Positions 1 to 9,257 of a stretch of 9,257 bases of DNA are shown here, piece by piece. The notes beneath the pieces are model-generated. The model was not told the DNA's origin and searched no databases. It saw only the letters and a list, made by a program, of their open reading frames with translations. The stretch is taken from assembly GCA_005772945.1 (NCBI GenBank), contig SXIE01000496.1, positions 1 through 9,257 of the forward strand. The letters are read 5' to 3'. The position numbers were made by a program, and so were the translations under genes. Source of the DNA: Pseudomonadota bacterium (GTDB lineage Bacteria; Myxococcota; UBA9042; PHBI01). Positions within the stretch are counted from its first letter, which is position 1, and each line of letters opens with the position of its first letter.

Positions 1-168
1 AGCAAGCCCCGGCGCCTCGTCGCCGAGCATGCGCAACTGACCGCCTGCCCTCAGGAATTCGGTGCGCGCCGCTTCCTGCGGCAGCTCGTGCAACGCCGCC
101 TCGAAGACCCTCAGGGCCTCGTCGCGCAGGCCGTTCGCTGGGGCCGCTGAGGTAAGGGGCGCTTGCAT
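1..168 (-). CDS. Unknown protein, N-terminal fragment (runs off the window)
   Basis: An open minus-strand frame starts at an ATG (bases 166-168) and runs 56 codons without a stop to the window edge, so only the N-terminus is visible. About 45 of 55 codons after the start end in G or C, matching the bias of the certain genes here. A GGA lies about 5 bases upstream of the ATG. After a short flexible start (MQAPLTSAAPANG) the sequence looks helical and amphipathic, with EALRVFEAALHELPQEAAR followed by a second helix, loosely like a TPR or other helical-repeat segment. No signal peptide or known motif is visible. It diverges from the lipoprotein hydrolase gene. The function is not recognised, and the fragment is too short to exclude a chance open frame. 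Confidence 0.45.
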   Translation of the reverse strand, partial: MQAPLTSAAPANGLRDEALRVFEAALHELPQEAARTEFLRAGGQLRMLGDEAPGLA

Positions 169-232
169 GCGTTCCGCATATACCATCATAAAGGCCGTGA
201 TCGGTGGACGTCGGACGTTGGAGAATCGGACC
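169..232. promoter_or_regulatory. Divergent intergenic region with A+T-rich patch, possible promoters
   Basis: This 64-base gap separates a minus-strand and a plus-strand start codon and contains the locally A+T-rich stretch 177-192. On the minus strand, TATGAT (bases 190 to 185) is one mismatch from a sigma-70 -10 box and would give a leader of roughly 10 bases. On the plus strand, CATAAA at 187-192 lies 18 bases after TTGCAT at 163-168, a weak -10/-35 pair. A GGAG at 220-223, nine bases before the ATG at 233, is the ribosome binding site of the hydrolase gene. No -35 box is convincing on either strand, so the promoter calls are tentative. Confidence 0.3.
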
Positions 233-1771
233 ATGGCCCTCTCGAAGTTTCTCGCACCCGTGCTCGCTCTCGGCTTGAGCGCCTGCAGCAAGGCGCCGAC
301 GCCGGCCGCGCCTACGAACGCAGCGACCGCTCCGCACGCACCCGACACCGCGGCGACGCCCGCACCGGCCGCACCGGTCGCACTCCCCGAGCTCGCCAAG
401 ACGATCCTCGCGGCGCTCGAGCGCGGCGACATGGCGGCCGTGCAACCGCACCTCAACGCCGACATGGTCAAAGCGGTCGGCACCGGCGACGCGCTCGTCA
501 GGCCGTTCGCACAGCTCGGCAAGTGCCCGGCGATCATCGCGGTCAAAGAGCTGATCGAGGGCGCGTTCACGACCCAGCGCCTCACGTGCAAGTACGCCTC
601 GGGCCCGATGGACGTCCTCGTGACCTTCGACAAGGACGGCAAGCTCGCCGGGCTCCACCTGCGCCCCAGCACCGACGCGGCCGCCTTCGGCCCGCGCCCG
701 CAGACCCCGCAACCGCCCTTCCCGTATGGCGAGCGCGAGGTCACCTTCACGAACCCGGCCGACGAGGGTGTCTTCGCGGGCACGCTGACGTTGCCGAGCG
801 GCCCCGGTCCGTTCCCGGCGGCCGTACTGATCTCGGGCTCGGGGAGCCAGGACCGCGACGAGACGATCTTCGGCCACAAGCCGTTTCTGGTCATCGCGGA
901 TGCCCTCACGCGCCGTGGAATTGCGGTCTTACGCGTTGACGATCGCGGCGCCGGCAAGACCCGCGCGGAGCCCTCGCGCGCGACGCTCGCGCTCCATGCG
1001 AGCGACGTCGAGGCGGCCGTGCGCTTCGTGCGCACGCAGCCCGAGATCGACCCGAAGCGCGTCGGCCTCATCGGACACAGCGAGGGCGGGATCCTCGCGG
1101 CCATGGTCGCTGGCCGCAGCGACGCGCGCCGTGAAACTGCCGAGCCCGCGAGCGACCGGGATCCGGTCGCCCCACTCGCGTTCATCGTGTCACTCGCCGG
1201 AACCGGTGTGAGCGGCGCGGAGCTCGTACCGCAACAGATCGGCACGATCCTCGGCGCCATGGGCGCGGCGCCCGAGGGCGTCGCGGAGGTCGTCGCCGGG
1301 CAGAAGAAGATCTGCCAGCTCGCGATGGACGGCGCCCCGACCGCCGAGCTCGAGGCCGCGATCACCGAGACCGCCGCGATCGCCACGCGCCTGGTCGGCG
1401 CGGACAAGGCCGCCGGGCTCGACGAGAGCAACAAGGTCGCAGCCGCGCAGCTTCAGTCGCCCTGGTTCCGGTCGTTTCTCAAGACCGATCCGCGCTTGCA
1501 CTGGGGCCACGTCAAAACGCCGGTGCTGGCGCTGATCGGCGATCGGGACACGCAGGTTCTGGCCGAGCAGAACCTCCGCGAGATCGCCGCCGCGCTCGCC
1601 AAGGCCGGCAACGGCGACGTCACGACCGAGACGCTCGCGGGCTTGAACCACCTCTTCCAGCCCGCCAAGACCGGGCTTCTCGACGAGTACGAGACGATCG
1701 CGCAGACGTTCGACCCGGCCGCGCTGGAGCGCATCGCGAGCTGGATCGAAAAGCACGTCGCGCCCCGCTGA
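233..1771 (+). CDS. Lipoprotein alpha/beta hydrolase with N-terminal DUF3887-like domain
   Basis: A 512-residue serine hydrolase predicted to be anchored to the cell envelope. The start at 233 is preferred over the open frame reaching back to 62 because it is preceded by GGAG and begins a clean lipoprotein signal, MALSKFLAPVLALGLSAC, with lipobox LSAC and lipidation at Cys18; Ser at +2 fits outer-membrane sorting. A Pro/Ala/Thr linker covers residues 20-50. Residues 51-145 resemble DUF3887, with Cys98 and Cys119 as a possible disulfide. The alpha/beta hydrolase fold covers about 165-510: SGSGSQDRDE (201-210) near the oxyanion hole, nucleophile Ser283 in GHSEGG, probable acid Asp439 in GDRDTQV, and His473 in LNHLF. 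A helical insert at about 325-415 probably forms the lid. The overall type is the dienelactone-hydrolase/S9-like peptidase or esterase group; the substrate is unknown. It converges with the CLC gene. Confidence 0.9.
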   Translation: MALSKFLAPVLALGLSACSKAPTPAAPTNAATAPHAPDTAATPAPAAPVALPELAKTILAALERGDMAAVQPHLNADMVKAVGTGDALVRPFAQLGKCPAIIAVKELIEGAFTTQRLTCKYASGPMDVLVTFDKDGKLAGLHLRPSTDAAAFGPRPQTPQPPFPYGEREVTFTNPADEGVFAGTLTLPSGPGPFPAAVLISGSGSQDRDETIFGHKPFLVIADALTRRGIAVLRVDDRGAGKTRAEPSRATLALHASDVEAAVRFVRTQPEIDPKRVGLIGHSEGGILAAMVAGRSDARRETAEPASDRDPVAPLAFIVSLAGTGVSGAELVPQQIGTILGAMGAAPEGVAEVVAGQKKICQLAMDGAPTAELEAAITETAAIATRLVGADKAAGLDESNKVAAAQLQSPWFRSFLKTDPRLHWGHVKTPVLALIGDRDTQVLAEQNLREIAAALAKAGNGDVTTETLAGLNHLFQPAKTGLLDEYETIAQTFDPAALERIASWIEKHVAPR

Positions 1772-1787
1772 TCCGCTTCGGCGTCAG
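1768..1787. terminator. Possible weak hairpin between convergent genes
   Basis: The 20 bases spanning both stop codons can fold as CTGAT/GTCAG (one G-U pair), then a one-base bulge, then CCG/CGG with a CTT loop. The hydrolase stop (TGA, 1769-1771) and the CLC stop (TCA read on the plus strand, 1784-1786) lie in opposite arms. No T-run follows on either strand, so an intrinsic terminator is doubtful. The 12-base gap holds nothing else. Confidence 0.2.
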
Positions 1788-3733
1788 GCCTCCGCCTCCT
1801 TGGCCGCGTCGACGACGGTCCTGCTGCGGCGCGGGCCCGCCACGCGTGTCAGCGTACCGAGGTAATGCTGGGTGATGTCGTCCTCGTCGAGGAACCCGAC
1901 GATCACATGCCCCTCGACCACCGGGATCTCGCGCAGGCGGTTGCGGATGAGGCGCTCGGCCGCCGCGCGCACGCTCTCGTCGGGCGCGGCCACGACCGGC
2001 GCCACCATCACGTCGCGCGCCGTCGTGGGCGAGAGCGGATCGAGCGCCAGCTTGCGCAGATCGTCGGCGCGCACGATGCCGACGATGTGGTTGTCGAGGC
2101 CGCGCACCGGAAACGTGTCCTGCCAACCCTCGGCCGCGAGCGCCCGCAGCATCTCGTGGGCCTCGGTCCCCGGCGCGAACGACGCGAAGGTCGCCGCCGG
2201 CACCATCACGTCCTTCACACACGTCGACTCGAGCGCCGTCACGAGCGCCTCCTCGCGATGCACCGGCGAGTCGCGCTGCGTCGGGAGCTGCGCCGGATAG
2301 AGCGTGCGCCGCCGGACCGCCACGAAACACACGCCCAGCGCCAACATGAGCGGCACGAGCAAGTCGTAGCTCCCGGCCATCTCGCACACGAGCACGAGCG
2401 CCGACAGCGGCACGTGCGCGAGGCCGCCGTAGAACGCGCCCATGCCCACCAGCGCGAAGGCGCCGGGGTCGATCGCCGGATCGATCAGCAGCTGCGCGGC
2501 ATGCCCGAACGCGCCACCGAGCAGCGCCCCGATCGCCAAGGACGGCGCGAAGTCACCAGCCGATCCGCCCGATCCGATCGTGAACGACGTCGCGATCAGC
2601 TTCGCGAACGCGAGCAGCACCAGGAGCCCGACCACGAGCCAACCGCCCGGCAGCCACGGGGCCCCGCTGATGGCCGTCTGGACCGCGCCGTAGCCGCCGC
2701 CGAGGAGCCCGAGCCCCTGGCCGGGCGTGCCGATGAGGTCGCCGACGCCCATGACGATCGGCGTGACGAAGATGCCCAGGAGGAGCCCACCCCAGGCCGG
2801 ACGCAGCCACGCCGGGCCCGGCAGGCGCTGCATGAGGCGCCGCAGGCCGCCCATCACGGCGAGCGAGATGTGCGCGAACAGCGCCAGGACGACCGCCATG
2901 AGCGCATAGAGCGGCAGATGCGACGGCGTGAACGGGTAGCGCGGCGCGTGCGCGAAGAGGATGCTCTCGCCAAAGAGCGAGATGACGACCGAGTAGGCGA
3001 CCACGCTCGCGAGGATGGCGGGGACCAGGGCGTCGGACTCGAAGTCGTCGCGGTAGAGGAACTCGACGGCGAGCAGCGCGGCGCCCAGCGGCGTACGGAA
3101 CACGGCCGCGATCCCGGCGGCGATCCCCGCGACGAGCAGGATCCGCCGCTCGCGCGCGCCGAGGCCGAGGAGGCGCCCGACCAGCGAGCCGACCGCCCCG
3201 CCGATCAACATGGTCGGCCCCTCGCGTCCGCCGGCCCCGCCGGTCCCGAGGGTGAGGAACGACGCCAGCGGCTTGGCCCAGAGGACGCGGCTGCGCAGGA
3301 CCCCGCCCTTATGGTGGTAGGCCTCGATGGTCGTGTCCGCGCCGCCGCCGGAGACCTCGGGCACGTAGCGCGCGATGAGCCCGCAGCCGAGCCCGCCGAG
3401 CGCGGGCAGAATCCAGAGGAGCCACGGGCGAAAGTCGGTGGGGGCGCCCGCGTCCGCGCCGACCAGGAGCAGCTCGCCGTGCGCGCGGAGGGGAACGTAG
3501 CCCGTCGCGCCCTCGAGGATCTCGGTCTGCGCGATCTCGATGAGCCAGAAGAAGGCGGCGCCGATGAAGCCGGCGATGATGCCGACCAGCACGGTGTGGA
3601 GGAGCGTCCGCCCGACGATGCGGAGGTCGAGGGGCGCCAGCTCGCCGATGACGTTCGGCAGGCGCGGCAGGTCCCGCGCGCGCATCGCGCGGAGGCGCTT
3701 GAAGAGCCCCTTGCGCCCCTGCGCGCGGGTCAC
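1784..3733 (-). CDS. CLC-family chloride channel/transporter with tandem CBS domains
   Basis: A 649-residue inner-membrane CLC protein that would form homodimers moving chloride or another anion. Hydrophobic segments fill about 42-475. Signature regions: EVSGGGAD (126-133) in place of the usual GSGIPE, GREGP (169-173) with gating Glu171, and GDFAP (393-397) in GSGGSAGDFAPSLAIG. Tyr479 in TLYPAQ matches the central anion-site tyrosine (E. coli ClC Tyr445). Glu224 matches E. coli Glu202, but the internal proton glutamate (Glu203) is replaced by Phe225. Two CBS domains follow, about 506-565 and 573-629; in this family they often bind adenine nucleotides and regulate gating. The start is GTG, one base after the stop of the LNS2 gene, with GGTGGTGAG just upstream; ATG at codon 17 (3683-3685) is an alternative. 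It is probably translationally coupled to the LNS2 lipoprotein gene. Exchanger or channel mode cannot be decided from sequence. Confidence 0.95.
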   Translation of the reverse strand: MTRAQGRKGLFKRLRAMRARDLPRLPNVIGELAPLDLRIVGRTLLHTVLVGIIAGFIGAAFFWLIEIAQTEILEGATGYVPLRAHGELLLVGADAGAPTDFRPWLLWILPALGGLGCGLIARYVPEVSGGGADTTIEAYHHKGGVLRSRVLWAKPLASFLTLGTGGAGGREGPTMLIGGAVGSLVGRLLGLGARERRILLVAGIAAGIAAVFRTPLGAALLAVEFLYRDDFESDALVPAILASVVAYSVVISLFGESILFAHAPRYPFTPSHLPLYALMAVVLALFAHISLAVMGGLRRLMQRLPGPAWLRPAWGGLLLGIFVTPIVMGVGDLIGTPGQGLGLLGGGYGAVQTAISGAPWLPGGWLVVGLLVLLAFAKLIATSFTIGSGGSAGDFAPSLAIGALLGGAFGHAAQLLIDPAIDPGAFALVGMGAFYGGLAHVPLSALVLVCEMAGSYDLLVPLMLALGVCFVAVRRRTLYPAQLPTQRDSPVHREEALVTALESTCVKDVMVPAATFASFAPGTEAHEMLRALAAEGWQDTFPVRGLDNHIVGIVRADDLRKLALDPLSPTTARDVMVAPVVAAPDESVRAAAERLIRNRLREIPVVEGHVIVGFLDEDDITQHYLGTLTRVAGPRRSRTVVDAAKEAEA

Positions 3734-3734
3734 C

Positions 3735-4997
3735 TCACCACCAGCCCTTGTTCACGTCGGGCGGCGTCGGTCCCGGCACGAGCGCGGCGGGCGCCGCTTG
3801 CGCCGTCGGCAGGTGGCTCGGGTACGCGTTCACCGCGACCGTCCCTTCCTGTCCAGCGTTCGCCCCGATGATGTAGGTCCGATTCTTCGGGATGTTGACG
3901 TTCGCGTAGGCGTGGATGTCGGTCGTGGCGTTGCCGTAGGCGGCGTAGAAGGCGGCCTGCGCCTCGGCGACGACCTTGTTCAAGAAATCGGTCTTGTAGG
4001 CGGCGACGCCCGCGTCGGTCGGAAAGGCCTGGGTGTTCGTGTCGGTCAGGTGCACGACGCCCGGCGGGTAGCCGAGATCGACGAGCCACGTCTGGGTCTG
4101 GGCGCGGAGCAGGTCGGGGCGGCCCGTGACGTAGATGATCTGGTAGCCCTTCTGGCGGTAGGCCCAGAGGACGTCCTGGCCGCCCGGATAGGCCTCGGGG
4201 ACGTAGCTGCCGGAGAAGAGGTCGGTGAATATCTGGGTGATGAGCTCGAAGTCGCTGGTCGTGAGCGTGCCGTCGATATCGGTGACCACGACGCTCACGG
4301 ACGGCGCCGTGACCCACAGCGTGAAGGCCGCGATCGAGAGGTCGCCCTTGACGAGCATGCGAACGGGATACACGCCGACGGGCAGGCGCTTGGCCATCGG
4401 GAGCTCGACGAAGATGCGGCCGCCATCGTCCGCAACGCCCCACATCGTGCCGTACTCGCCGTCCTCGGAGGTCGGGAAGACCCCGAGCGACTCCCAGGCG
4501 CCGCACGGCGCATCGGGCTGGTAGAAGACCTCGACGTCCTCGTCCTTCAGGTCCTTGTCGATGGCCCCGTAGGCGAACTTGGCGATGAGGCGTTGCGGCT
4601 CGCCGGCCGCGACGATGACGTCCTGGCCGCGGTGGTTCGGGGCTCCCATCGGGATGGTGAGGACGCCCGTCTCGAGGCTGTTACGCCACTCGCCCTTGGC
4701 GTAGGGGGGAACGAACGGATTCGGGATGCAGGCGGCCGGCGACGTGTCTTTCGCTGGCTCGATCGTCTCGTCGACGCGCGTCTCCTCGGGCGGCGCGGTC
4801 GCTTCCGCGGCGAGGGCGGTGTCGCCGGGCGCGGCCGTATGGGCGGTCCCGACGCCGGTGTCGACGGCCACCAGGGTATCCGCGGGGGCGCTCGTCGCGC
4901 TGTCTCGAGAGTTCATGGCGTCTTGACCGCAGGCGGCCGCAAGGGCCAGCAGAAACCACCACACACGCCAGGGCGCGCGAACCGGGGGGGCAGACAT
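3735..4997 (-). CDS. LNS2 (lipin/Nir-like) HAD phosphatase domain lipoprotein
   Basis: A 420-residue exported protein. The N-terminus MSAPPVRAPWRVWWFLLALA leads to AAC, giving a lipoprotein signal with lipidation at Cys23. Residues 27-88 are a Thr/Ala/Asp/Glu-rich linker. Residues about 92-232 look like a beta-sandwich ending in LPVGVYPVRMLVKGD (205-219), which resembles the segment before LNS2 in eukaryotic PITPNM/Nir proteins. The LNS2 HAD domain covers about 235-395: motif I DIDGT (Asp240, Asp242), motif II YVTGRP (Thr291), Lys335 in AYKTD, and motif IV GNATTDIHAY (Asp360), the last matching the lipin GNR..D..SY motif. All catalytic positions are present, so Mg-dependent phosphatase activity is plausible; phosphatidate is the lipin substrate, but the substrate here is unknown. 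The open frame extends upstream to 5915 only as a shadow of aguA. The gene is followed one base later by the CLC gene. Confidence 0.88.
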   Translation of the reverse strand: MSAPPVRAPWRVWWFLLALAAACGQDAMNSRDSATSAPADTLVAVDTGVGTAHTAAPGDTALAAEATAPPEETRVDETIEPAKDTSPAACIPNPFVPPYAKGEWRNSLETGVLTIPMGAPNHRGQDVIVAAGEPQRLIAKFAYGAIDKDLKDEDVEVFYQPDAPCGAWESLGVFPTSEDGEYGTMWGVADDGGRIFVELPMAKRLPVGVYPVRMLVKGDLSIAAFTLWVTAPSVSVVVTDIDGTLTTSDFELITQIFTDLFSGSYVPEAYPGGQDVLWAYRQKGYQIIYVTGRPDLLRAQTQTWLVDLGYPPGVVHLTDTNTQAFPTDAGVAAYKTDFLNKVVAEAQAAFYAAYGNATTDIHAYANVNIPKNRTYIIGANAGQEGTVAVNAYPSHLPTAQAAPAALVPGPTPPDVNKGWW

Positions 4998-5015
4998 GGG
5001 CGCCAATATAGCGCC
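4998..5015 (-). promoter_or_regulatory. Candidate leaderless promoter (-10 box) for the LNS2 gene, inside an inverted repeat
   Basis: On the minus strand TATATT (bases 5010 to 5005) lies seven bases before the ATG at 4997. A sigma-70-type -10 there would start transcription at or next to the A of the ATG. The bases between, GGCGCCC, hold no Shine-Dalgarno sequence, which fits a leaderless or very short leader. The -35 region is poor. The box is flanked by GGCGC (4999-5003) and GCGCC (5011-5015), a 5-base inverted repeat around CAATATA that could bind a dimeric regulator or be chance in such GC-rich DNA. Of the rest of the gap to 5108, 5050-5062 holds a small imperfect palindrome (CCGA..TCGG). 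Confidence 0.35.
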
Positions 5016-5064
5016 TCGAACCGTCTCCGTCGCTTCGCCGCGTGTGTTTCCGATCGATTCGGAT

Positions 5065-5072
5065 GGAGGAGG
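5065..5072 (+). promoter_or_regulatory. Strong Shine-Dalgarno-like GGAGGAGG, oddly far from the aguA start
   Basis: GGAGGAGG is the only good ribosome-binding sequence upstream of aguA, yet it ends 21 bases before the first in-frame GTG (5094) and 36 bases before the preferred GTG (5109). An ATG inside it (5063-5065) opens a five-codon frame ending in TGA (5075-5077). A second ATG at 5098 opens a five-codon frame whose TGA (5110-5112) overlaps the GTG at 5109, giving GTGA. Reinitiation from such mini-frames is conceivable but not shown. Confidence 0.3.
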
Positions 5073-5093
5073 CTTGAGGCGCGCGCGAGCGGG

Positions 5094-5153
5094 GTGTATG
5101 GCCGCCCCGTGACCGCCTCGCCCGTGACCGCCTCGCCTGTGACCGCTTCGATC
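5094..5153 (+). repeat. 15-base tandem repeat creating serial in-frame GTG codons at the aguA start
   Basis: Units begin at 5109, 5124 and 5139. The first two differ by a single base (GTGACCGCCTCGCCC against GTGACCGCCTCGCCT), and the third is GTGACCGCTTCG followed by diverged bases. A degenerate earlier unit at 5094 also begins with GTG. Each unit is five codons (Val-Thr-Ala-Ser-Pro), so copy changes keep the frame and shift the available start codons by five residues. Confidence 0.75.
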
Positions 5154-6172
5154 AGCCTGCTGCGCAGCCGCGGCCATGCGCTCATCCCGGAGTGGATGCC
5201 GCATCGCGCCGTCTGGTGCGCATGGCCGCACGACGCGGCCGAATGGGGCCCGGCCTTCGAGCCCGCGCGCGACGCGTTCGGAGCGCTGGTCGCGGCGCTC
5301 GCAGCGGGCGGCGAGGCCGTCGAGGTCCTCGTGCGCGACCCGGCCGAAGAGGCGTCCGCCCTCACCGCCTTCGCGCGTCACGGCGCGCGCGCCGCCGCCG
5401 TCCGCACGCATGTCGCCCCGTATGGCGACGTCTGGACCCGCGACACCGGACCGCTCTTCATGGTCGCTCCCGACGGCGCGCGCGTCGCGCTCTGCTGCGA
5501 ATGGAACGGCTGGGGCGGCAAGTACCTGATGGACGGCGACGACGGCGTCGCGCACCTCATCGCGGCCAGCGCCGCGCTCCCGACCTTCGACGCCGACTTC
5601 GTCCTGGAGGGCGGCGCGATCGAGATCGACGGCACCGGGACGCTCCTCACGACGCGCTCGTGCCTCCTCCATCCCAACCGCCACCCGGGCGCCGTCCCGA
5701 CCGAGGCCGCCCTCGAGGCCCGCCTCCGCGCCTGGCTCGGCGTGGAGCGCATCGTCTGGATCGACGACGGCCTCCACTTCGATCACACCGACGGCCACGT
5801 CGACAACATCGCGCGCTTCGTCGCCCCCGGCGTGGTCGCGATCGGCGCGCCCGACGGCGCTGGCGACCCGCACCGCGACCGCCTCGTCGCCATCCGCGAG
5901 CAGGTCACGCGGCACGGCCTCGAGGTCGTCCCCCTGCCCTCACCCGGCCGCGTCGAGAATCCGCACACCGGCGAGCTCCTCCCTGCGAGCCACCTCAACT
6001 TCTTCATCGCCCAGCACGCGATCGTCGTCCCGGTCTACGGCCGCCCCTCCGACGACGCCGCCTGCCGGCAGCTCGAGGCCCTCTTCCCCGGACGGCGCTC
6101 GCTGCCCGTCTTCGCGACGCACCTCCTGACCGGGGGCGGCTCGGTCCACTGCATGACGAAGGAGGAGCCCGC

Positions 6173-6191
<19 letters not shown>
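5109..6191 (+). CDS. aguA: Agmatine deiminase (agmatine iminohydrolase)
   Basis: This cytoplasmic enzyme hydrolyses agmatine to N-carbamoylputrescine and ammonia, in the arginine-decarboxylase route to putrescine. From GTG 5109 it is 360 residues, the normal family length. Peptidylarginine-deiminase-family signatures are in order: IPEWMPHRAVWCAWPHD (26-42), VWTRDTGPLF (108-117), EWNGWGGKY (131-139), EGGAIEIDG (167-175), FDHTDGHVDNIARF (224-237) with catalytic His230 and Asp232, SHLNFFI (294-300), and the C-terminal GGGSVHCMTKEEP (342-354) with nucleophile Cys348. The conserved domain begins near residue 24, so GTG at 5094, 5109, 5124 or 5139 could all start it. The open frame runs back to 3540 only as antisense to LNS2 and CLC. 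The 3' end overlaps aguB by 19 bases. An arginine decarboxylase is not in the window. The identification is firm; only the exact start is uncertain. Confidence 0.95.
6159..6167 (+). promoter_or_regulatory. Ribosome binding site of aguB inside the end of aguA
   Basis: AAGGAGGAG ends five bases before the aguB ATG at 6173, a near-ideal Shine-Dalgarno placement. It also encodes Lys-Glu-Glu of the conserved aguA C-terminus, three codons after the catalytic cysteine. It fixes the aguB start and supports translational coupling of the pair. Confidence 0.85.
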
Positions 6192-7044
<853 letters not shown>

Positions 7045-7045
<1 letters not shown>

Positions 7046-7107
7046 CCCGCTCGCGAAGAGCGCCCGGCGCTTGCCCCCTCGCGAAGAGCGCCCGGAGCGT
7101 GCCCGCT
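7045..7107. repeat. 28-base direct repeat filling the aguB / DUF2169 convergent gap
   Basis: Two adjacent copies, 7050-7077 and 7078-7105, match at 25 of 28 positions around the core CTCGCGAAGAGCGCCCGG. The GCCCGCT at 7045-7051 recurs at 7101-7107, giving about 2.25 copies with period 28. Copy 1 contains AGCGC-CCG-GCGCT, a short hairpin that substitutions break in copy 2. The array ends at both stop codons (TAG 7043-7045; CTA 7106-7108). No T-run is present, so a classical terminator is not supported. Confidence 0.8.
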
Positions 7108-9257
7108 ACTTCTTCTTGGGCGGCCCTTCCGCGTTCGGATCGATCGCGAGCACCTCGCCGGTCTCCGGATCCCGAATGATCCCGAACTCCTCGTCGGCCT
7201 GATCGCGCGCCACGCCCTTCAGCGCCTTCTCCTTCAGCTTGGCGAGCTTCTCGGCGCGCGCCTTCTGCTCGTCCACGAAGCCATCGCGCTCGGCGCGGAA
7301 CTTGTCGTCCCATTCATCGGTGTGGAGCTGGCGATCCTGCGACTGGTCCCACACCGCCGCGTCGGTCACGTCGTCCATGCGCGCGCCGATCCCGCCCTTT
7401 TTCCGACGGAACTGCTCGAGGTACTTCTTGTACGCCTCCTCCCCCTGGATCCCGTCGTCTTCGAGCGCGACGTCGTCCATCAAGAGCGCCGCGCCCTCGT
7501 CCTTCTTCTCCTTGGCGGCTTCCTTCCGGCGCATCTCGAGCCAGCTGTCCTGGTCCACCTCGATGACGTTGATCTTCTTGAAGGCGCGCGTCTCCAGCTC
7601 CTCGAAGTTCTTGAGCCGATACCAAGCCCGCCAGACCATCTCGACCGCCGGCTTCTTCGCATCCTCGACGTCGATGAGCAGCGTATCGAGCCGGAACTTG
7701 AGCGGCTCGGGCCCACGCGACAGATCGATCGTCGCCGTCGGATGGATCCCCGGCAGCCGGAAGAACAAGGTCCCCTCGGGCGTGAGGTTCGTCAGGTAGA
7801 CCTCCTCGTCCCCGCGCAGCTCCTTCACCTGCATCTTCGGATGTGCCTCCTGGAACGCCAACGGGTGCATGAGCGGAATCTCGAGCTTGCTCAGCTGCTC
7901 GAGGATCGCCTTGTCGTCCGGATCATCCTCGTCGTACTCGTCCTTGGCCTTTTCCACCCCCGCCTTGGCGAGATCGATGTCCCACGTGTACGCCCCGAAA
8001 TAGCGCGCGCGCGGATACCACGCCATCGGGTACGGCGCCCACCCGGCCGGCGTCCGCAGCTTGGTCAGATCGAAGTTCGCCAAATCGACGACGATCTCCT
8101 CGCCCGTCAGCGGCTCCTCCGGATCCTCGATGTTCGGCAGCGGCACATTCTCGACCTGCTCCTCGAGGTGCCCGACGCAGAAGCCCTTGCCGCACATGTT
8201 CGCCGGATACGGAATCGTCGGGACGTCGCTGTCCTCGAGCTTGCGCTTCTTCTTCTCGGGCCGCGCCCGCACGTACGCCGCCGCCCAGTTGTCGTCGTTC
8301 AGCTTGATGTCGCCGAACTTGGTCGCGCGGTCGCGCAGGGTCCCTTCCTCGTCCTTCAGCTTGCGCGCCTCGCCCACCGCGCGCTCCTCGAGCAGCTCCT
8401 TGAACTCGTCGTCCTCCTTGAGCTTGTTGAGATCGATCGCGGACGTCGCGCCATCCGAGAAGAACGCCGCGTTCGGATCGGCCTCCTTCTTCACCTCGGC
8501 CTTGGCGTCCTTTTTCGCGTCCCCGCCCTTGCCGTCCGCGTCCTCGGCCGCGGCCTTCTTGGCGGCCGCCTCGGCCTTCAGCCGGTCGAATTCATCTGCC
8601 GTTTCGGGCAGATCGCGCCCGAGACGGTACGCGCTGACGATCTTCATGCCGTCGTCTTTGGCGGCCTCGGCCTCGAGCCGCGCGCGCGTGGCCTCGTCGA
8701 GCTTGAGGTCGACACCCTCGTCGATGAGGAACGCCTTGCCCGCGATCTCGGCCGCCTTCTCGTCGGTGATCCCCGGCGGCTTCGGCTTCTTGTCCTTCGC
8801 CTTCTGCGCGTCCTCTTCCTTCTTCTTGAGCTCCTTCACGATCTCTTTCTTGCGCTCGCGCCGGTCCTCGATCACCGCCGAGGTCGCCTGCGCCTCCTCC
8901 GCCGAGACCTCCGCGTCCGGCGTCAGCACGATCTTGCCCCAGCCGCCATACGCGCTCTCGTAGCGCAGCGGCAGCTTGTCGATCGGCTCGGGCTCCGAGA
9001 AATCCGGGTCCGGCCAGACCCACTGCTCGCCCTTGGCGAGGTCCTCCGCCGTCAGCCACTTGAGCGGCGGATACCACACGAGGTGCCGATTCCCGTAGAC
9101 GCGCAGCCGCCGCTTCACGACGTTCTGGATGCGCACCTCGACCTCGAACTGCGGCACCGCCTTGCCGCCCGGCGCGTACGCCGTCCCGCGCACCATCACG
9201 TCGCAGTTCGGCTTCTCGTACGCGATCTCGCTCGGATGTCGCACGCTGACCATCGGC
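7106..9257 (-). CDS. DUF2169-domain protein (type VI secretion-associated), 5' partial, with large charged insertion
   Basis: The frame is open to the window edge. The ATG at 9253 falls inside the conserved domain (VSVRHPSEIAYEKPNCDV matches the internal S.RYPSDL..KP.TDV region of DUF2169), so the true start lies outside. Numbering from that Met, 715 residues are visible. DUF2169 landmarks: GTAYAPGG (23-30), VKRRLRVYGNR (46-56), LPLRYESAYGGW (94-105), YPANMCGKGF (349-358), LPNIEDP (372-378), TPAGWAPYPMAWYPRAR (401-417), LTNLTPEGTLFFRLPG (487-502), DTLLIDVED..VEMVWRAW (523-544). Between AYGGW and YPANMCGKGF, normally some 15-25 residues apart, lie about 240 charged, Lys/Glu/Ala-rich residues. 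A charged tail (about 550-715) ends in PPKKK. DUF2169 proteins act as adaptors for type VI effectors in Agrobacterium (linked to Tde2) and often neighbour PAAR or effector genes; none is visible here. A stretch of the coding sequence on the plus strand (8061-8963) is open but is a Ser-rich shadow. Confidence 0.85.
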   Translation of the reverse strand, partial: PMVSVRHPSEIAYEKPNCDVMVRGTAYAPGGKAVPQFEVEVRIQNVVKRRLRVYGNRHLVWYPPLKWLTAEDLAKGEQWVWPDPDFSEPEPIDKLPLRYESAYGGWGKIVLTPDAEVSAEEAQATSAVIEDRRERKKEIVKELKKKEEDAQKAKDKKPKPPGITDEKAAEIAGKAFLIDEGVDLKLDEATRARLEAEAAKDDGMKIVSAYRLGRDLPETADEFDRLKAEAAAKKAAAEDADGKGGDAKKDAKAEVKKEADPNAAFFSDGATSAIDLNKLKEDDEFKELLEERAVGEARKLKDEEGTLRDRATKFGDIKLNDDNWAAAYVRARPEKKKRKLEDSDVPTIPYPANMCGKGFCVGHLEEQVENVPLPNIEDPEEPLTGEEIVVDLANFDLTKLRTPAGWAPYPMAWYPRARYFGAYTWDIDLAKAGVEKAKDEYDEDDPDDKAILEQLSKLEIPLMHPLAFQEAHPKMQVKELRGDEEVYLTNLTPEGTLFFRLPGIHPTATIDLSRGPEPLKFRLDTLLIDVEDAKKPAVEMVWRAWYRLKNFEELETRAFKKINVIEVDQDSWLEMRRKEAAKEKKDEGAALLMDDVALEDDGIQGEEAYKKYLEQFRRKKGGIGARMDDVTDAAVWDQSQDRQLHTDEWDDKFRAERDGFVDEQKARAEKLAKLKEKALKGVARDQADEEFGIIRDPETGEVLAIDPNAEGPPKKK

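Follow-up and report, generated by a model that had tools for sequence, protein, structure and literature searches.

A predicted myxococcotal lipoprotein with a Nir-type LNS2 module and an intact HAD catalytic set

The LNS2 domain is familiar from the PITPNM/Nir (RdgB) proteins, which are large and cytosolic and carry it as their tail, and from the lipins, which in the cases studied so far are intracellular. Here we describe a bacterial LNS2 protein, a predicted lipoprotein of 420 amino acids encoded at positions 3735 to 4997 on the reverse strand of contig SXIE01000496.1 (assembly GCA_005772945.1, Myxococcota), positions 1 to 9,257 of which make up the window analyzed. In contrast to the Nir domain, the window protein stands alone, is predicted to be exported, and has a pair of cysteines. 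A search of the open-access literature found no study of a bacterial Nir-type LNS2 protein, most subscription papers lying outside its scope.

The available part of one report describes lipin/Pah enzymes as dephosphorylating phosphatidate by means of a D-x-D-x-T motif and Mg2+, with an Ig-like domain that widens the membrane face, and the D146A change in Tetrahymena Pah2 (TtPah2) abolished activity (PMC7066176). Nir1 is described, in the available part of another, as having SIDGS, without the catalytic Asp, and its K820 as required for the binding of phosphatidate but not of phosphatidylinositol bisphosphate (PMC12419160).

Domain layout and closest described systems

The gene and the parts of its product are as follows, all on the reverse strand (-).

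3735..4997 (-), LNS2 gene, ATG at 4997 and stop codon ending at 3735; predicted lipoprotein of 420 amino acids with a Nir/PITPNM-type Ig-like plus LNS2 HAD module
4932..4997 (-), predicted signal peptide, residues 1 to 22, MSAPPVRAPWRVWWFLLALAAA, ending in LAAA (sequence, lipobox rule, family survey)
4929..4931 (-), Cys23, predicted lipidated residue, with Gly at +2 (sequence, lipobox rule)
4680..4928 (-), linker, residues 24 to 106, rich in Ala, Thr, Pro, and Asp; predicted local distance difference test (pLDDT) score for the most part no higher than 65 as far as about residue 90 (predicted model)
4728..4730 (-), Cys90, partner of Cys165 in a cysteine pair common in the family, a possible disulfide (family alignment)
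4647..4679 (-), short helix, residues 107 to 117, preceding the beta-sandwich (predicted model)
4311..4637 (-), Ig-like beta-sandwich PF24695, residues 121 to 229 (Pfam, model)
4503..4505 (-), Cys165, second of the cysteine pair (family alignment)
3864..4289 (-), LNS2 HAD domain PF24694, residues 237 to 378 (Pfam, model)
4251..4280 (-), HAD motif I, DIDGTLTTSD, residues 240 to 249, with D240 (nucleophile), D242 (acid/base), T244, and D249 (alignments)
4125..4127 (-), Thr291, HAD motif II position, in YVTGRPD (alignments)
3993..3995 (-), Lys335, HAD motif III, in the column of the Nir Lys that corresponds to Nir1 K820 (alignments)
3918..3932 (-), HAD motif IV, N356 to D360, NATTD (alignments)

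A first-pass annotation of this DNA had proposed an LNS2 domain of the lipin/Nir type, and Pfam bears this out: LNS2_PITM1-3 (PF24694) scores 101.3 bits and the PITM beta-sandwich (PF24695) 79.3 bits, each against a cut-off of 27.7, and the older LNS2 model (PF08235) scores 54 bits against 32.3. The human PITPNM1/Nir2 chain 9jtz matches the window protein with an E value of 2.9e-29, and the module match is far above chance. The segment preceding the HAD domain, called Nir-like in that annotation, is GVYPVRMLVKGD (residues 208 to 219) and lies inside the beta-sandwich match; the Ig-like domain also contains NHRGQD (residues 121 to 126). A structural comparison, suggested at the same time as a check, gave the Nir2 C-terminal domain (9jtz, 9jz1, 9jzp) as the closest match in both fold and sequence. 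In the predicted model the window protein also shares the Ig-like plus HAD two-domain architecture of lipin/Pah enzymes, of which Tetrahymena Pah2 (6tzy, 7lhk, 9d13-9d16) is 16% identical to it. The short helix sits, matched by position, where Nir LNS2 and TtPah2 have their N-terminal helix in the available part of PMC12419160. The PITP and DDHD domains of whole Nir proteins gave no Pfam match in the 420 residues at E values up to 1, and Lipin_N gave none in the window protein. The catalytic domain of the APP1 phosphatidate phosphatase (PF09949), which is also a HAD domain, matches at 29.4 bits, just over its cut-off of 27.1, but is not the best match, given 101.3 bits for PF24694.

A search with the window protein returned 164 relatives at E values up to 1e-3. 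The best 120 of these, which include the window's own protein (database entry P0002), all contain both PF24694 and PF24695, and all except P0023, P0083, and P0084 contain PF08235. The same family stands in databases under automatic names such as "LNS2 domain-containing protein" (Anaeromyxobacter terrae) and "phosphatidylinositol transfer protein" (a deltaproteobacterial metagenome-assembled genome [MAG]; P0087, P0059).

Active site, export signals, and proposed function

The HAD residues named in the first-pass annotation, Asp240, Asp242, Thr291, Lys335, and Asp360, were each found in place, and the catalytic set, comprising the lipin/Pah DxDxT motif and the remaining HAD catalytic residues, is intact in the window protein. 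A profile alignment combined 121 protein rows, retrieved via shared words and similarity and counting one protein twice (P0001 and P0002), with 81 locus rows retrieved with a DxDGT pattern. D240, D242, and T244 are kept in 121/121 protein rows and 81/81 locus rows; since the locus scan required DxDGT, it is the protein rows that test motif I. K335 is kept in all 201 covered rows and G355, N356, and D360 in all 200, while position 291 is Thr in 188 of the 202 rows, Ser in 13, and Ala in 1. Nir proteins differ at four positions that the window protein keeps, with Ser replacing D240, Ser or Ala replacing T244, and D249 and N356 missing, so that motif I of the window protein reads DIDGT and not SIDGS. 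The degeneracy of the Nir motif, likewise anticipated, is uniform among the best 120 of 353 matches to a Nir2 search: all 118 rows with a letter at position 240 have Ser, 116 have Ser and 2 have Ala at position 244, and at position 356 there are 85 Ser, 1 Phe, and otherwise gaps. In an alignment of 70 rows (56 bacterial, namely 30 from the window's clade and 26 others, with 9 Nir and 5 lipin rows), N356 occurs in 56/56 bacterial, 5/5 lipin, and 0/9 Nir rows, and D249 in 30/30 window-clade, 17/26 other bacterial, 5/5 lipin, and 0/9 Nir rows. The window protein does appear to share the phosphatidate-binding Lys of Nir, as K335 aligns with Nir1 K820; the Nir2 Lys aligned there lies 78 residues past the first residue of SIDGS, which equals the Nir1 spacing from 742 to 820. 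This conservation, read together with the published Nir1 and TtPah2 data, indicates that the bacterial family joins an active site of lipin type to a Nir-type body, and the window protein is very probably catalytically active.

Export signals were surveyed with a simple lipobox rule of our own, with shuffled N-termini as the control. This rule detected a lipobox in 86 of 120 proteins (119 relatives plus the window protein) versus 220 of 6050 shuffled N-termini; the window protein is among the 86, and the lipobox at Cys23 reported earlier is thus present and shared by relatives. The other 34 proteins include several missed lipoboxes, several plain Sec-like signals, and some truncated sequences. 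Under a looser rule, 66 of 81 locus open reading frames (ORFs) pass, a count that has no control and contains some dubious matches; three Bacillota members (L022, L039, and L049) fail it yet show Sec-like signals. Of the 86 proteins with a lipobox, 38 have Gly at +2, 13 have Asp, 11 have Ser, and none has Lys. According to the available part of PMC3222651, Lys at +2 marks inner membrane lipoproteins of Myxococcus xanthus and Ala at +7 those of the extracellular matrix. The window protein has Gly at +2 and Asn at +7, for which this rule would give the outer membrane as a default guess. With a tolerance of two columns for each, both Cys90 and Cys165 are present in 113 of the 120 proteins, and the number of cysteines from position 80 onward is exactly two in 94 of the 120. 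The pair is found in 53 of 81 locus rows and so is not universal among more distant members; Cys at position 165 was seen in none of the 113 Nir2-like rows with a letter there. Together, the lipobox and the cysteine pair argue for an oxidizing, extracytoplasmic place.

We propose that the window protein is exported and lipid-anchored and works as a Mg2+-dependent phosphatase of the lipin/Nir (LNS2) HAD group, with phosphatidate as the most likely substrate, and assign this reading a probability of about 0.62. It combines the lipin mechanism, the role of Nir1 K820, and the matching Lys spacing with four points established by computation: module identity, the intact catalytic set, family-wide export signals, and the cysteine pair. 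The earlier interpretation, an LNS2 protein placed outside the cytoplasm on a membrane surface, is supported. The signal peptide would carry the protein across the inner membrane, Cys23 would be lipidated, and, under the Myxococcus rule, Gly at +2 would direct it onward to the outer membrane; the flexible linker could hold the Ig-like and HAD module at the membrane surface. D240 would take its phosphate from a phosphomonoester in the membrane, for which phosphatidic acid bound by K335 is the most likely candidate, and D242 would aid phosphate release to leave diacylglycerol, as in the lipin/HAD mechanism. The lipid anchor would replace the membrane docking by an amphipathic helix of lipin and Nir. 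Phosphatidate or a near relative seems the probable substrate. Such a family, if real, implies phosphatidate turnover beyond the cytoplasm, and small bacterial LNS2 proteins might become phosphatidate tools alongside PILS-Nir1.

Several observations weigh against this proposal. The closest match in fold and sequence, the Nir2 domain, was solved with phosphatidic acid, and the Nir domain is described as non-dephosphorylating in the available part of PMC12419160, both of which favor a phosphatidate-binding sensor or adaptor without turnover, like animal Nir LNS2. A pure sensor, however, would need neither the nucleophile nor the motif IV Asn, yet every covered bacterial row keeps both of these residues, which Nir lacks, and this explanation is rather improbable. 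As for export, the window lipobox, LAAAC, has Ala and not Leu at -3 and is weaker than the textbook form. The database gene model P0002, at 378 amino acids, begins at an internal start codon and lacks the signal peptide because that start lies downstream; no clear Shine-Dalgarno sequence was seen by eye ahead of 4997, and a simple scan found no sigma-70-like promoter. Were the true start indeed downstream, the hydrophobic N-terminus would be unused and the enzyme cytoplasmic. Against this stand the lipobox or signal peptide of most relatives, the common cysteine pair, and the long low-complexity linker, and we consider a cytoplasmic enzyme very improbable indeed.

The protein could also be an exported LNS2 phosphatase acting on another phosphomonoester, such as a phosphosugar, nucleotide, nucleic acid end, or phosphopeptide, in phosphate scavenging or prey digestion. 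The Ig-like domain in its lipin-type arrangement and the retained phosphatidate-binding Lys of Nir speak for phosphatidate instead, and a lipobox in 86/120 proteins suits a membrane substrate. We regard a different substrate as unlikely.

Distribution of the family and relation to animal Nir proteins

The taxonomic spread given here is a lower bound, since the genome scan took in 80 of 121 confirmed loci. Most of the 80 are titled Deltaproteobacteria or Myxococcota/myxobacterial groups; outside these are Bacillota (L022, L027, L032, L039, L049), Massilia (L066), Oligoflexus (L046, L074), and single MAGs titled Spirochaetes and Planctomycetota. Of 189 genomes of the Myxococcota (the phylum being that of a Polyangium genome), 51 have a match above the Pfam cut-off, in a few cases a partial one near 30 bits, and 66 have one at E values up to 1e-3; one of 14 control genomes matched, below the Pfam cut-off. 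If the proposed function is correct, about one-quarter of the sampled Myxococcota genomes would thus carry a family of phosphatidate-type phosphatases that is exported and often membrane-anchored. Several searched genomes carry two to four family matches, and Massilia rubra has two nearby copies (5359-6729 and 7836-8885 of L066). P0114, P0085, and P0118 have long added N-terminal parts ahead of the module (686 amino acids in all, cysteine-rich repeats, Gly-rich linker). The member from a MAG titled Klebsiella pneumoniae (L024) clusters with Proteobacteria/Deltaproteobacteria MAG sequences in the 217-row tree described below and is probably mislabeled or contaminated. A viral origin was rejected, as 55 viral-contig loci match about 140 residues at most around the HAD domain, at 27 to 35% identity, and resemble generic HADs. 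Plasmid carriage was rejected as well, being represented by two Pseudoalteromonas records only, at 33% identity.

A tree of bacterial and eukaryotic LNS2 domains had been recommended as a further check. In two trees, the lipin rows (11 and 5) form a single clade that excludes the window protein (100/100). The mean identity of Nir is 34.8% to the window's clade, 29.1% to other bacterial members, and 18.6% to lipins. Trees that place Nir within the bacterial family were rooted on lipins and built from rows of at least 215 residues (217-row tree) or at least 220 residues (later trees), shorter rows being left out; the 217-row tree retained near-identical rows from bacteria and took in just the first 16 rows of Nir. 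Nir falls inside the bacterial family in a 104-row clade of the 217-row tree (98 by Shimodaira-Hasegawa-like approximate likelihood ratio test [SH-aLRT]), in a 71-row tree (95/94), and in an 81-row tree with 11 lipins (95/99, with the bootstrap not fully settled), where all bacteria stood on one side of a branch in 0% of 200 bootstrap trees. The 70-row set joined Nir to the window's clade at 98/96, with a wider branch at 92/97. However, approximately unbiased (AU) tests retain trees with Nir outside all bacteria (P values of 0.188, 0.173, and 0.202), and the tree with Nir outside the window's own clade (P value of 0.667) scores above the free tree. Because these alternatives are not rejected, the nesting of Nir inside the bacterial family is only suggestive.

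Nir forms one long-stemmed clade and the bacterial members are more diverse in the 71- and 81-row trees, which makes transfer from bacteria to animals the better guess for direction. The named Nir matches examined among the best 120 of the 353 are from animals. It is conceivable, and we offer it tentatively as something short of probable, that the Nir/RdgB domain arose from an exported Myxococcota-like phosphatase by transfer to an early animal, with loss of the export signal, cysteine pair, and nucleophile turning an enzyme into a sensor. The lipid-sensing domain of Nir/RdgB in any case gains close bacterial relatives with an intact active site, which makes its origin and the change from enzyme to sensor directly testable.

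Genomic neighborhood

Downstream of the LNS2 gene and on the same strand, starting 1 nucleotide past its stop codon, is a gene for a ClC-type chloride channel/transporter with CBS domains (1784-3733, reverse strand; PF00654, 279 bits). It had no match among the ORFs called in 80 related loci (blastp, E values up to 1e-8), and a same-strand gene lies within 50 nucleotides downstream in 5 of the 56 loci having both flanks. A conserved operon was rejected: among 811 ORFs clustered from the 80 loci and the window, no neighbor cluster was common to more than 16 of 80 loci, a result in which weak linkage could escape, as the ORF caller was crude (the LNS2 family itself clustered in just 69 loci, and the window's LNS2 gene was missed) and many loci were truncated. 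No Rfam match to an RNA element was found near the LNS2 gene. The genomic context is uninformative on the function of the LNS2 protein.

Divergent from the LNS2 gene at 5109-7045 (forward strand) are a gene of the peptidyl-arginine/agmatine deiminase family (PF04371, 307 bits) and, after it, one for a carbon-nitrogen hydrolase (PF00795, 170 bits), probably an agmatine-to-putrescine pair. An alpha/beta hydrolase resembling esterase EstD is encoded at 62-1771 (forward strand; NCBIfam, 116 bits, under the cut-off of 600) and has a lipobox-like LGLSACSKA of its own following an internal Met. The gene at 7106-9253 (reverse strand) encodes a DUF2169 protein of 715 amino acids (PF09937, 157 bits in two stretches) with long stretches rich in Lys, Glu, and Asp.
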